From positions 1 to 37,061 of the forward strand of contig JAUXNX010000002.1 of the NCBI GenBank assembly GCA_030682575.1: 37,061 bases of DNA, given 5' to 3'. Below the pieces are notes generated by a model. That model was not told the origin of the DNA and did not search any database. It worked only from the letters and a program-made list of their open reading frames with translations. Of the stretch, positions 11,412 through 15,134 are shown piece by piece (within the stretch, counting starts at the first letter, position 1; every line of letters begins with the position of its first letter). The position numbers and the translations under genes are program-made. This DNA is from Gammaproteobacteria bacterium. Its GTDB lineage: Bacteria > Pseudomonadota > Gammaproteobacteria > Pseudomonadales > Pseudohongiellaceae.

Positions 11412-12419
11412 TTATGGTTGTTGAAATACGGGTTTGTGAAAAACGCACATCTGGATCTGGAAGCCATTACGCAGTCCCAGATAGACACTCTGTTCGGGGC
11501 GCAGGCCAGCCTGCGTTGCCCAGTCATGCAATTCGTCCGGATCGAAACCGAGCCACAGATCGCCACAGGATTCACGCACCCAGTCCTGATCGTGACGGCA
11601 CAGGTCCACGATCAACAGCAGGCCACCTTCATTGAGCAGGTTGGTCGCGTGCTGAAATGCTTCCTGCGGTGACGGCAGATGGTGCAGCACCATGTCGTAC
11701 AGAATCACATCGCAGCGAGTGTTCAGTGCCAGCGCGGTATGAGTGTCGCCGTGGATGAAGCTGACGTTGTCCAGCTTGCCGGCCGCGATGGTGGTCTTGG
11801 CGAGATTGAGCATCTCCAGCGCATTGTCCAGGGCAATCACGTTGCTGAACTGCTGTGCGAGCTTTGCCAACAACTCACCTTCGCCCGGGCCTACTTCCAT
11901 GACCTTGAGGTCGGCACTGAGTTCCAGCTCGTGCAGCAGGTCGAGCACACTGCTCATGTACTGACTGTGTTCGGCCACCAGCCCCTGCTTCTCGCGGAAC
12001 TTGTCAGAGTGCCTGCTGAAGAATTGCAGCGATTGCTCGGAACGTTCCTGCTGCACGAGATTGAGCCTTTCGCGAAGTTCTTCCCGCAGAGGTACCCGGT
12101 CGATGGTCTCGAAGGCGCTCTTCTTGAAGCTGTGCAGTGGATCATCGCTGACCAGCAGCGGGCGGCGATAGAAGATGCTGTTGCCTTCGCGTCGGGTAGT
12201 AGCCAGCCCGGCGGTGGCCAGAATCTTGAGGTGATGACTGAGGGCCGATTGCCGAATATCCAGAATGCGGCAGATCTCCAGCACGCCGAAGGAGCTGGTA
12301 CGCAGCAGGCGCAGAATCTCCAGACGCAGGCTGTCCGCCAGTGCCTTGCACACCAGCGTGAGCGCGTCCGCATCATCCAGCGCGGTGCTGTCGTCCTTTC
12401 TGAGAGCCGTGATGGTCAA
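11412..12419 (-). CDS. sahR: ArsR-family regulator fused to a SAM-dependent methyltransferase fold (SahR-like)
   Basis: 335 residues. Residues ~18-95 are an ArsR winged helix (ALADSLRLEILRLLRTSSF, then RQSALSHHLKILATAGLATT). Residues ~160-330 are a class I methyltransferase fold with motif I VMEVGPGEGELLAKL and YDMVLHHLPSPQEAF. This architecture next to metK-ahcY-metF is that of SahR, described in other Proteobacteria as an SAH-responsive repressor of the methionine/SAM cycle. That family knowledge is recalled, not tested here. The start is TTG at 12419, with AGGA 6 nt upstream, and no ATG fits the conserved N-terminus. A perfect inverted repeat at 12485-12512 lies in its promoter region. It might instead be an enzyme-regulator hybrid of unknown ligand. 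Confidence 0.8.
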   Translation of the reverse strand: MTITALRKDDSTALDDADALTLVCKALADSLRLEILRLLRTSSFGVLEICRILDIRQSALSHHLKILATAGLATTRREGNSIFYRRPLLVSDDPLHSFKKSAFETIDRVPLREELRERLNLVQQERSEQSLQFFSRHSDKFREKQGLVAEHSQYMSSVLDLLHELELSADLKVMEVGPGEGELLAKLAQQFSNVIALDNALEMLNLAKTTIAAGKLDNVSFIHGDTHTALALNTRCDVILYDMVLHHLPSPQEAFQHATNLLNEGGLLLIVDLCRHDQDWVRESCGDLWLGFDPDELHDWATQAGLRPEQSVYLGLRNGFQIQMCVFHKPVFQQP

Positions 12420-12484
12420 GGCTGATCCTGTTGTTTACAGTCAAGTTTGTGTTCGAATGGGCCGGGACTATAACAGGGATGACA

Positions 12485-12512
12485 ATCTATATCAAAATTA
12501 ATTGATATAGAT
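12485..12512. promoter_or_regulatory. Probable SahR operator
   Basis: ATCTATATCAA-N6-TTGATATAGAT is a perfect 11-bp inverted repeat 66-93 bp upstream of the TTG start of the ArsR-type regulator. AT-rich dyads with an ATCAA/TTGAT core are typical of ArsR-family sites. It would control the whole regulator-metK-ahcY-metF-rsmE operon. No second copy was noticed in the window. Confidence 0.7.
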
Positions 12513-12516
12513 GAGG

Positions 12517-12536
12517 GGGATCCTTTTGGAGATCCC
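12517..12536. other. GATCC hairpin between the SahR operator and element A
   Basis: GGGATC (12518-12523) and GATCCC (12531-12536) form a short stem over a 7-nt loop, immediately before the 135-bp palindrome. Its role is unknown. Confidence 0.3.
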
Positions 12537-12671
12537 GGGAGTACGGCCTGTGCCCACCTGCGACGGTCCTGCGCCGCTCCGCGGTGCCCTCCCTCCGCAA
12601 AAAGCCTGGGATCTTTTTGCTGCGCTCGGCGCTGGCCCTGATTGTCGCTGGCGGGCACAGGCCATACTCCC
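12537..12671 (-). repeat. 135-bp palindromic element, copy A
   Basis: Read on the minus strand, the arms GGGAGTATGGCCTGTGCCC and GGGCACAGGCCGTACTCCC pair over 19 bp with one G-T. Inside are a second stem (GCGAC/GTCGC), a third (GCGCC/GGCGC) and a central hairpin GCAAAAAG-N8-CTTTTTGC at 12597-12620. The conserved 64-nt core spans 12571-12634. A purine-rich stretch (GGAGGGAGGGCACC) follows the central hairpin. Copy B has the same length and the same stems at the same positions. The open frames across it are by-products of the repeat. I do not recognise it as a named element. Confidence 0.75.
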
Positions 12672-12833
12672 TTGCGCTCTGCGAATGCAACACACCTGTC
12701 TAAAACCAAACATGGGGTGAGTGAATTCACGTTGCCTGTCAATTTCGAAGTGGGGGCGCAGATGTCTCTCCCCCGAGCGAATCGGGCGTTTCGACAGAAT
12801 CTACGAATCCAGTCGTCTGAAGTTCAACAAGGT

Positions 12834-12968
12834 GGCGGGAGGCAGGGCCCGGTTCAGCGGCATGAAAGACCAGCGCCGAACGCAACAAAAAGACCCTGGG
12901 CTTTTTGTGGAGAGAGGGCACCGCGGAGCGGCGCGGGTCAGCCGCAGAACCGGGCCCTGCCTCCCGCC
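12834..12968 (+). repeat. 135-bp palindromic element, copy B
   Basis: Same length as copy A and in inverted orientation to it. The outer arms 12834-12855 and 12947-12968 pair perfectly over 22 bp but differ from copy A at most positions. The core 12871-12934 is about 89% identical to the core of A (7 differences in 64 nt by my count), and the central hairpin ACAAAAAG-N8-CTTTTTGT is at 12885-12908. The 9-bp word AGAATCTAC occurs on both sides of the element (12796-12804 and 12975-12983), which might be a target duplication or chance. Confidence 0.75.
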
Positions 12969-12987
12969 GCCGTTAGAATCTACAAGA

Positions 12988-13021
12988 ATTCGCGAGCAGG
13001 CTCGCCCTTGCAGGGTGGGGG
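12988..13021 (+). repeat. Solo REP sequence
   Basis: ATTCGCGAGCAGGCTCGC followed by a C-rich then G-rich tail up to 13021. GCGAGC-AG-GCTCGC is the REP head palindrome. The head matches the ahcY-metF REP doublet. It lies 19 bp from the end of palindromic element B, within the tkt upstream region. Confidence 0.65.
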
Positions 13022-13127
13022 CATAGCTACGGCAAAATAAAAGAAAGCCCGGGTAGCATATTCACCAGAGGTGCGGGAAAATGGCCGCCTTGCAAATCAG
13101 CCAGCCAGAAACAGGAGCCAGACCCGT

Positions 13128-15134
13128 ATGCCCAGCCGTGTTCCCTCGCGCAGAGACTGTGCCAACGCCATCCGCGCCCTCAGCATGGACGCTGTCCAGA
13201 AAGCCAACTCCGGACACCCCGGTGCGCCCATGGGCATGGCAGACATCGCCGAAGTGCTCTGGAATGACTTCCTGCAACACAGCCCGGTCAATCCAGGCTG
13301 GGTCAACCGCGACCGCTTCGTCATGTCCAATGGTCACGGTTCCATGCTGGTGTATTCGCTGCTGCATCTGAGCGGTTACGATGTCCCGATGGACGAGATT
13401 CGCAACTTCCGCCAACTGCATTCCAAGACTCCTGGCCATCCCGAGTACGGCTATACCCCCGGCGTGGAAACCACCACCGGACCGCTCGGTCAGGGTCTCG
13501 CCAATGGCGTCGGCATGGCCATCGCCGAGAAGACTTTGGCGGCACAGTTCAATCGCCCCGGTCATGAAGTCGTGAGTCACTACACCTATGTTTTCGCCGG
13601 TGACGGTTGTCTGATGGAGGGTGTCTCCCACGAAGTCTGCTCACTGGCAGGCACATTGGGTCTGGGCAAACTGATCGTGTTCTATGACGACAATGGCATC
13701 TCCATCGACGGCGATGTGGAAGGCTGGTTCACGGATGACACGACAAAGCGTTTTGAATCGTATGGCTGGCAGGTACTGTCCGTAGACGGTCACAACCCGG
13801 ATGAAATCGCCGCAGCCATCAAGTCAGCACAGGCCGATACCGCGCGGCCCACCATCATCAAGTGCAAGACCGTGATCGGTTTCGGTTCGCCAGGCAAGCA
13901 GGGCACTCACCATGTGCACGGCTCGCCGCTGGGTGATGCAGAGATTGCAGCCACTCGTGCAGCACTGGGCTGGGAGCACGCTCCATTCGAAGTGCCCGAA
14001 GACATCATGCGCGCATGGGATGCACGCGAGAGAGGGTTTGCCGCAGAGTCCGCGTGGAAAGAAACCCTGGTGCGTTACGAAGAGGCATATCCCGAGCTGG
14101 CCATGGAGCTTGTGCGGCGCCTCAAGGGCCAGTTGCCCGGCCACTTCGCCAGCAAGGCCGACGAATACATCCGCGTCTGTCAGGAGAAGGGCGAGAACAT
14201 CGCCAGCCGCAAGGCTTCGCAGAATTGTCTCGCTGCCTTTGGTCAACACTTGCCGGAAATGATCGGCGGTTCTGCTGACCTGGCCGGTTCCAATTTGACC
14301 ACATGGTCTGGCAGCAGAGTGATTACCGACACGGCCGATGGCAACTACATCAACTACGGCGTGCGTGAGTTCGGCATGTCCGCGATCATGAACGGCATCG
14401 CGTTGCACGGCGGGTTCATTCCATTCGGTGGCACCTTCCTGATCTTCATGGAATACGCGCGCAATGCCGTGCGCATGTCTGCGCTGATGAAGCAGCACTG
14501 TATCTTTGTCTACACCCACGATTCCATTGGTCAGGGCGAAGATGGTCCGACGCACCAGCCAATCGAGCAGGTATCGAATCTGCGCGTGACACCAAACATG
14601 TCCGTATGGCGTCCGTGTGATGCCGTTGAGTCTGCTGTGTCATGGAAGGCTGCGATCGAGCGCACTGGCGGGCCAACCTCACTGGTGTTCTCGCGTCAGA
14701 ATCTCAATCACCAGCAGCGCACTCCTGAACAAGTGAATGCGATTGCACGTGGCGCCTATGTGCTGAAGGATTGTGCTGGCGTTCCCGAAGTCATCATCAT
14801 CGCCACGGGTTCCGAGGTGGCGATCTGTGCCGATGCAGTGACACAACTGCAGGAATCCGGTGTGCGTGCGCGTCTGGTGTCGATGCCTTCGACTGATGTA
14901 TTCGAAGCACAGGATGAGGCTTACCGCGAGAAAGTGTTGCCACGCACTGTGCGAGCACGTCTTGCGGTGGAAGCGGCTGCGGCTGACTACTGGTACAAGT
15001 ATGTCGGCCTGGATGGCAAGGTGATTGGCATGACCACGTTTGGTGAGTCGGCACCCGGCCCCGTGCTGATGAAGGAATTCGGTTTTACCGTTGATAACGT
15101 AGTGAGCACTGCCACTGCCTTGTGCAGGAAGTAG
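13128..15134 (+). CDS. tkt: Transketolase
   Basis: 668 residues from the ATG at 13128, with AGGAG 10 nt upstream. The frame is open further upstream to 13071, but [20 protein letters not shown] gives the usual family N-terminus. Motifs: [20 protein letters not shown], thiamine-diphosphate motif [13 protein letters not shown] through [26 protein letters not shown]-type segment (here [20 protein letters not shown]), and the C-terminal domain with ATGSEV. It moves two-carbon units in the pentose phosphate pathway, using thiamine diphosphate. It is the first gene of tkt-epd-pgk-fba, with a 25-bp gap to epd. Confidence 0.97.

Follow-up and report, generated by a model that had tools for sequence, protein, structure and literature searches.

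Bacterial MITEs and long palindromic repeats such as ERIC are short, non-coding, multi-copy intergenic sequences that are able to fold, and integron attC sites have variable folding arms of which one strand is used. Among the dispersed hairpin repeats, REPs are described in the available text of PMC8266576 as 20-50 nt sequences behind a conserved tetranucleotide, mostly GTAG, and REPINs in that of PMC3116915 as invariant 16-mers at both ends of a less conserved spacer. The hairpin family reported here is of an already known kind, that of dispersed, folding, non-coding repeats; new are its constant tip, its covarying arms, its unlike facing halves and its strand bias. Nothing was recognised as this family in the open-licence literature, as judged from titles and abstract openings.

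The window, i.e. the whole stretch of DNA analysed, comprises 37,061 nucleotides from a gammaproteobacterium of the Pseudohongiellaceae. Between two divergent genes it carries two hairpin elements, A and B, with the following layout:

11412-12419, minus strand (12419 down to 11412): gene for an ArsR-type regulator fused to a methyltransferase, adjoining an S-adenosylmethionine synthetase gene
12467-12495, minus strand: promoter-like site ahead of the ArsR/methyltransferase gene, from the site scan; a neighbour, outside the element
12488-12509, no strand: palindrome (TATATCAAAATTAATTGATATA) under the promoter-like site, from direct reading of the sequence
12537-12671, minus strand: element A (A type), a 135-nt hairpin, from its fold, pairs, copy list and orthologous conservation
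12572-12635, minus strand: conserved apical core of A (element positions 37-100), from its identity to B and the family alignments
12672-12833, no strand: 162-base spacer across which the 5' ends of A and B face each other, from sequence comparison
12829-12833, plus strand: AAGGT foot of B, which together with bases 3' of B can add a few pairs to the outer stem, as judged by eye
12834-12968, plus strand: element B (B type), a 135-nt hairpin, from its fold, copy list and pairs
12870-12933, plus strand: conserved apical core of B (element positions 37-100), from the alignment to A
12992-13005, minus strand: REP-like small hairpin (GCGAGCCTGCTCGC) directly outside B, terminator-like in the site scan
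13071-15134, plus strand: transketolase gene, right neighbour of B

The sense strand of A is the minus strand, so that its 3' end points leftward, toward the ArsR/methyltransferase gene, and the 3' end of B points rightward, toward transketolase. By eye, the ends of the spacer resemble those at other loci and its middle does not. AAGGT was the commonest 5-base foot, preceding 12 of 116 copies. The GCGAGCCTGCTCGC hairpin lies, as judged by eye, where sister genomes have an inward-facing REP; it did not match the REP pattern used in our REP scan. The palindrome TATATCAAAATTAATTGATATA presumably resembles an ArsR-type operator and is present in congeneric genomes both with and without the element. 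The transketolase leader (13061-13128) is 61-64/68 identical in five congeners, above the region just before it, and is possibly a regulatory leader; it gave no Rfam match at curated cut-offs.

An earlier note on this DNA, made from the sequence alone, had described A and B as structured copies with a conserved core and compensated arms, and the description proved accurate. Both elements are 135 nt long and align without gaps, with 90 of 135 positions identical, and the 64-nt core given as about 89% identical is their best-matching stretch, element positions 37-100 (57/64). The outer 19 base pairs differ between A and B at 12 positions, and all 19 pair in both copies, with a single G-T at pair 8/128 of A. 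Two inner pairs also change together, as the note had stated: pair 27/109 has A-T in A where B has G-C, and pair 52/75 has G-C in A where B has A-T. The stem continues to pair 22, with a second G-T in A (20/116), and is followed by an A.A mismatch and five more pairs. When both strands of A and B were compared with 200 dinucleotide shuffles, z ranged from -8.0 to -9.0 and 0/200 shuffles folded as well.

A BLAST search with A hit 26 places in its own genome. A covariance model (R1) built from 23 own-genome copies, the type of search which the earlier note had proposed, recovered 25 sense copies there, 24 of them full-length and one ending at a contig end, besides two weak partial copies and 14 weak antisense echoes; the possibility that no further copies exist, named in that note as evidence against a structured element, is thereby ruled out. 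Full-length hits were mostly 124-162 nt long. The own-genome copies fall into two main arm types, A-like and B-like, and A and B are the two arm types making one divergent unit. Not all pairs contain one of each, since three own-genome pairs were B-like on both sides by best BLAST score. Two copies of this assembly lie at contig ends (G000 C8 and C27), one of them sharing arm sequence with two others; the arm combinations at these ends may be assembly chimaeras. Loci were also collected by pattern matching, and some of these 74 loci (e.g. L049, L094), which had no R1 hit, were taken as chance matches.

For the analysis of covariation, 91 copies from 53 loci were aligned (alignment A4; hits at E up to 1e-7, so that weaker relatives are missing). 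Standard pairs occupied 96.1% of the 4153 pair cells in A4, which was fitted to the model and leans toward structure, as covariance-model selection can favour paired copies. Double changes were seen in 40 of 46 pairs; they filled 1094 cells versus 326 in shuffled alignments, counted over related sequences and not as independent events. When partners were slid by 1-3 columns, only 41-50% of the cells were paired. The covariation score was 0.697, against 0.166 (sd 0.006) for shuffled alignments and 0.107-0.149 for slid partners, and the compensation is thus beyond chance. In the 23 BLAST-found own copies alone, 31 of 46 pairs were doubly changed. The outer pairs were the most variable and the apical core the least, with an apical GGA loop atop a covarying stem (by eye). 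Altogether, the family-wide covariation supports the suggestion of the earlier note that selection acts on a fold, or that some process keeps the arms paired; copies matching only in linear sequence, its second case against a structured element, are not what the family consists of.

Neighbouring copies less than 1200 bases apart were predominantly divergent. Out of 43 such pairs, counted without antisense hits, duplicate named-record copies from congeners and short fragments, 39 had their 5' ends facing ('-+'; median spacer 162 bases), three were '--' and one was '++'. At further loci from other genera, 15 of 18 pairs were '-+', two '++' and one '--'. Two sets of 20 regions had been chosen from longer hit lists, several of them for closely spaced hits, which favours the detection of pairs and not their orientation. 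In the spacers of several units of one genome (L333, L335, L338), runs of GGGTTT- or CCCAAA-like repeats were noticed.

Two unlike hairpin types again face apart in Mangrovimicrobium sediminis, the genome of which gave 34 R1 hits at E up to 0.01. Here an additional small hairpin was found at the outer ends of the units: among 17 loci scanned, 11 had both outer hairpins, three had one and three had none. Their loops are constant and their arms of 18-20 pairs vary, yet pair almost perfectly, with 192 Watson-Crick cells versus 6 mismatches in 11 copies of the left hairpin and 233 versus 7 in 12 copies of the right one, at the pairing offset picked to maximise pairing. All 13 exact-pattern matches to the right-hand loop in this genome were located within 270 bases of an R1 hit. 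Outside these hairpins the flanks of different copies are unrelated by eye, and thus the unit has sharp ends in Mangrovimicrobium; several units end shortly past a terminator-like sequence. At locus L084, the left outer hairpin has its constant loop in inverted orientation with respect to the flanking sequence, an arrangement to be expected from recombination between the arms.

The distribution of the family is patchy. In a sample of 57 genomes, the element was present in its own genome, in 9 of 13 congeners, in none of 22 genomes from other genera of the family and in one of 21 others of the order. With a second model (R2), 15 carriers were detected among 390 genomes of the order, in 10 of 143 genera and with the own genome included; two of them belong to another genus of the family. 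A core-only model detected the element in 2 of 369 genomes of the class, again including the own genome. These searches scored no more than 8 (R2) or 11 (core-only) candidates in each genome, and their copy numbers are lower bounds. Such a patchy spread fits a mobile element or an old element that was much lost. A related core was matched in Chitiniphilus (50-55 bits), where, at two loci, a weak partner is oriented the opposite way, as expected (E 0.0005 and 0.006). One record labelled as a Klebsiella pneumoniae MAG (L062) had the same hit positions as G007:C43 of the window's own genus, and its label appears to be wrong.

By blastn, none of 72,556 plasmid and 50,697 phage records matched the window pair, and the Mangrovimicrobium unit had no match in plasmids. 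Exact patterns for the core and for one outer loop were absent from viral contigs, which is weak as evidence of absence. Of a Chitiniphilus query, only spacer pieces of up to 42 bases matched, in seven Sphingomonas plasmids. Carriage by plasmids, phages or viruses was rejected on the lack of matches for the window pair and, in plasmids, for the Mangrovimicrobium unit.

Comparison of orthologous loci showed that most of the compared copies are old. At the window locus both hairpins are present in the own genome and in three congeners (G009, G011, G013), A is kept and most of B lost in two (G008, G010), and no R1 hit was obtained in five (G001, G003, G004, G006, G012); the regions of G002 and G007 were incomplete, and the gene was not matched in G005. 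The other five genomes that keep A are identical to the own genome at 25-27 of 27 positions in the 5' arm of A, at 22-25 of 27 in its 3' arm and at 71-77 of 81 in its core, whereas the spacer of the same genomes is about 69-73% identical as a whole and at 50-56 of 79-80 positions in its middle. Hairpin A is therefore better conserved than the spacer. In G009, G011 and G013, each arm of B has 5 differences over 28 positions. In G009 and G013 the changed bases remain perfectly paired, among them a block of four bases that is altered in both arms, and the 3' arm of G011 carries unpaired changes.

Other loci documented decay and rearrangement. At one (locus X), hairpins were lost through deletions joining arm remnants. 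At another (locus Y), the unit is apparently inverted between two genomes and, in a third, duplicated around a helix-turn-helix gene (both by eye). In L198 (2036-3179), two unit copies, each missing a different half, enclose a gene for a helix-turn-helix regulator. Since A is conserved at the window locus and hairpins were deleted elsewhere, some copies are held and others erode.

We next consider which strand folds. For a double-stranded function, or for arms that correct each other, G-T and A-C imperfections are expected to be equally common. In the outer stems of A4, G-T was seen 106 times and A-C 19 times, and in the inner pairs 55 and 4 times; G-T was in excess at 22 of the 27 outer pair positions and A-C at two. 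Over all pairs, the mismatches G.G, G.A and A.G summed to 123, versus 8 for their complements C.C, T.C and C.T. A separate count over 67 congeneric copies, with short hits and identical sequences omitted, gave 78 G-T and 20 A-C, and the outer stems of the 23 own copies had 21 G-U and 8 A-C as counted from the pair table. Counts that ran past the stem ends showed a weaker bias (74 versus 56 and 70 versus 55) and are superseded by the stem-only counts. Thus a single strand, RNA or single-stranded DNA, is probably what folds, a mutational strand effect being the alternative source of the bias. As both RNA and single-stranded DNA give wobble bias, the bias does not choose between them.

The explanation that we favour, with a probability close to but just short of even, is that of non-autonomous structured mobile units which are recognised as folded single strands and of which some copies are kept by selection. 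A and B would be the unlike halves of one non-autonomous, protein-free mobile unit, composed of two long divergent hairpins around a short spacer and, in some lineages, of a small hairpin at each outer end. Recognition would be of one strand in its folded state, with constraint on the apical core and on the fold and with arms that drift as long as they stay paired. We infer that the unit most likely spread in single-stranded form, with an enzyme acting in trans to cut and join the DNA, and landed between genes. The simplest candidate enzyme would be a HUH-type nuclease, by analogy with IS200/IS605 and REP biology as far as covered by the available text of PMC8266576 and PMC3116915. Old units would decay by deletion between the arms, and some hairpins, including A of the window, would still be kept by purifying selection.

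Mobility of this kind is suggested by the 25 sense copies, the patchy distribution, the divergent pairs, the covariation and the wobble bias. The outer hairpins of Mangrovimicrobium with their sharp ends and loops close to the copies, the five congeners without an R1 hit at the window locus, and the Chitiniphilus cores in divergent pairs at two loci, albeit with a weak partner, point in the same direction. The dispersed mobile element considered in the earlier note, probably non-autonomous, is in this respect supported by copy number, distribution and the Mangrovimicrobium ends.

On the other hand, the loci examined yielded neither a transposase nor a target-site duplication nor an autonomous copy. 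Among 605 predicted proteins from the loci, no transposase cluster was recognised beside the elements (40 largest clusters, first 70 residues). A recurrent neighbouring gene family was rejected, as the clusters appeared to consist of neighbours that are orthologous or of spurious frames drawn across the element. Open reading frames across elements were read as spurious starts from six that were checked against Pfam: four matched nothing, one a zinc ribbon below cut-off and one glyceraldehyde-3-phosphate dehydrogenase, the domain of which starts after the element. An autonomous copy with genes between the halves was likewise rejected; the longest '-+' spacer (875 bases, L198), in which a helix-turn-helix gene is flanked by remnants of a duplicated unit, contains no transposase. 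Target-site duplications were not recognised by eye, and no parent transposon was found.

All 30 Y1-transposase loci of the genus were free of the element, the core, outer-loop and REP patterns were absent from 18 Y1 loci (12 of these 30 and six from more distant genomes), and four congeners with Y1 genes lack the element. The window's genus gave no clean filled and empty pairs that define the unit ends, the predominance of old, orthologous copies means that active movement was not seen, and a selfish relic would not need the conservation that A shows at one locus in six species. The Mangrovimicrobium outer hairpins, moreover, showed no strand bias (6 G-T, 5 A-C). Two other hairpin repeats were noticed in these surveys. 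One (GGGGTCAGAG...CTCTGACCCC) flanks a Y1 transposase gene in Mangrovimicrobium (L252) and stands alone in intergenic regions of congeners at locus X; the other, large one (GGGGCACAGA...ACGGCGTGTC...) adjoins one element copy at about 2990-3140 of L055 and in its orthologues.

A dispersed structured RNA is a possible explanation, although clearly short of probable. Transcription would run from the spacer outward through each hairpin and yield a small RNA or an RNA motif, with selection acting on the RNA fold. This would account for the strong covariation, for the excess of G-T over A-C on the sense strand, for the better conservation of hairpin A relative to the spacer and for the GGA loop on its covarying stem. 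Also in its favour, one orthologous pair reads C-G, U-G and U-A on the sense strand in three sister species; an A-C mismatch, however, stands at a pair near this site in the species with C-G. Hairpins of single-stranded DNA would produce an equal wobble bias. In a consensus scan, no sigma-70-like site was seen in the A-B spacer, and within 12420-13130 the sole one is that between A and the methyltransferase gene, so that A, upstream of this promoter-like site, would be outside that mRNA. The orientation of the elements relative to neighbouring genes is not constant either. No Rfam covariance model matched the window at its gathering threshold, and 12 related loci gave only a tRNA; below threshold, two miRNA families (better E 0.0077) and the MS2 hairpin were hit and taken as chance.

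That the fold is functionless seems unlikely. Palindromes could perfect themselves if template switching during replication copied one arm to the other, and the repeats would then be plain debris. Arms that vary and yet stay almost perfect, including those of the unbiased Mangrovimicrobium outer hairpins, the four-base block that differs in both arms of B in three sister species, and the inverted loop at L084 all agree with such a process. It predicts no strand bias, however, and ratios of 106:19 and 123:8 were observed; it also predicts arms drifting like the spacer, whereas the arms of A are retained at 25-27/27 and 22-25/27 against about 69-73% for the spacer.

It is improbable, too, that the elements are the interiors of REPINs moved by a REP-associated RAYT/TnpA-REP enzyme. 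In loci of four sister genomes (G002, G004, G005, G007), 11 of 21 elements have an inward-facing REP on each side (left side 13 inward and 2 outward, right side 13 inward and none outward), and 11 of 14 chosen copies folded with 85-base flanks had REPs on both sides and can form a giant hairpin. At one site a plain REP pair in one species corresponds to REP plus element in others (by eye), and a Y1 transposase is present in 13 of 14 genomes of the genus. In the own genome, however, a REP was near only 2 of 25 elements and on both sides of none, and Y1 genes also occur in element-free genomes. Only 2 of 116 copies had GTAG or CGTC within the 12 nt that precede the hairpin on its 5' side, the other 114 having neither, and a conserved tip with variable ends is the reverse of a REPIN as described in the available text of PMC3116915.

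A double-stranded cruciform binding site, insulator or bidirectional terminator is highly improbable: the intergenic position of the elements, often between convergent or co-directional genes, and the AT-rich apical stem of the window copies would suit it, but the mismatches are strand-biased, which goes against the cruciform-binding site of the earlier note as far as a symmetric double-stranded cruciform is meant, the site scan found no terminator-like site within A or B, and the window copies lie between divergent genes.

The many paralogues and orthologues with compensatory changes constitute a natural experiment in which selection on a folded strand is seen apart from sequence, and strand-biased mismatches offer a way to separate single-strand function from palindrome self-repair. 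If the units are mobile, they would represent a multi-hairpin kind of non-autonomous element beside REPINs; if they act as RNA, a dispersed RNA family absent from Rfam 15. Mangrovimicrobium sediminis is a culturable carrier of the family. As a broader and still doubtful generalisation, there may be a class of protein-free chromosomal elements defined by a folded single strand, with two unlike long hairpins facing apart and two optional outer ones, in which only the tips and the pairing are strictly inherited and the arms drift. It would recur in lineages scattered over the Gammaproteobacteria and have a related core in Chitiniphilus; individual copies would have been taken into service and held by selection.

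Compared with known systems, the elements resemble MITEs and ERIC in being short, non-coding, multi-copy, intergenic and able to fold. They differ in that no terminal inverted repeat of a known insertion sequence was recognised and the arms differ between copies; a conserved core with variable arms is the reverse of a MITE, as the earlier note had held. In attC sites the constant parts are boxes near the base, in contrast to the apical core here. The ends of IS200/IS605 carry subterminal hairpins read on one strand, and such recognition would explain the strand bias, but no linked transposase gene (tnpA) was found and the halves of the element face opposite ways. REPINs and BIMEs, for which single-strand recognition by a RAYT or TnpA-REP enzyme belongs to the known system, share with the elements the intergenic, dispersed and non-autonomous nature, the hairpin-capable inverted pairs (divergent in 39 of 43 and 15 of 18 cases) and the compensatory changes. 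A RAYT gene flanked by the same repeat was not found at any of the 30 Y1 loci. Membership in REPs or REPINs was rejected on size (mostly 124-162 nt versus 20-50 nt for REPs in the available text of PMC8266576), the missing foot and the conserved tip: here the tips are constant and the ends vary, whereas the ends of REPINs are invariant in that of PMC3116915. Furthermore, each half of an element pair is a complete long hairpin that folds alone. The elements thus share space with REPs but are not REPs.
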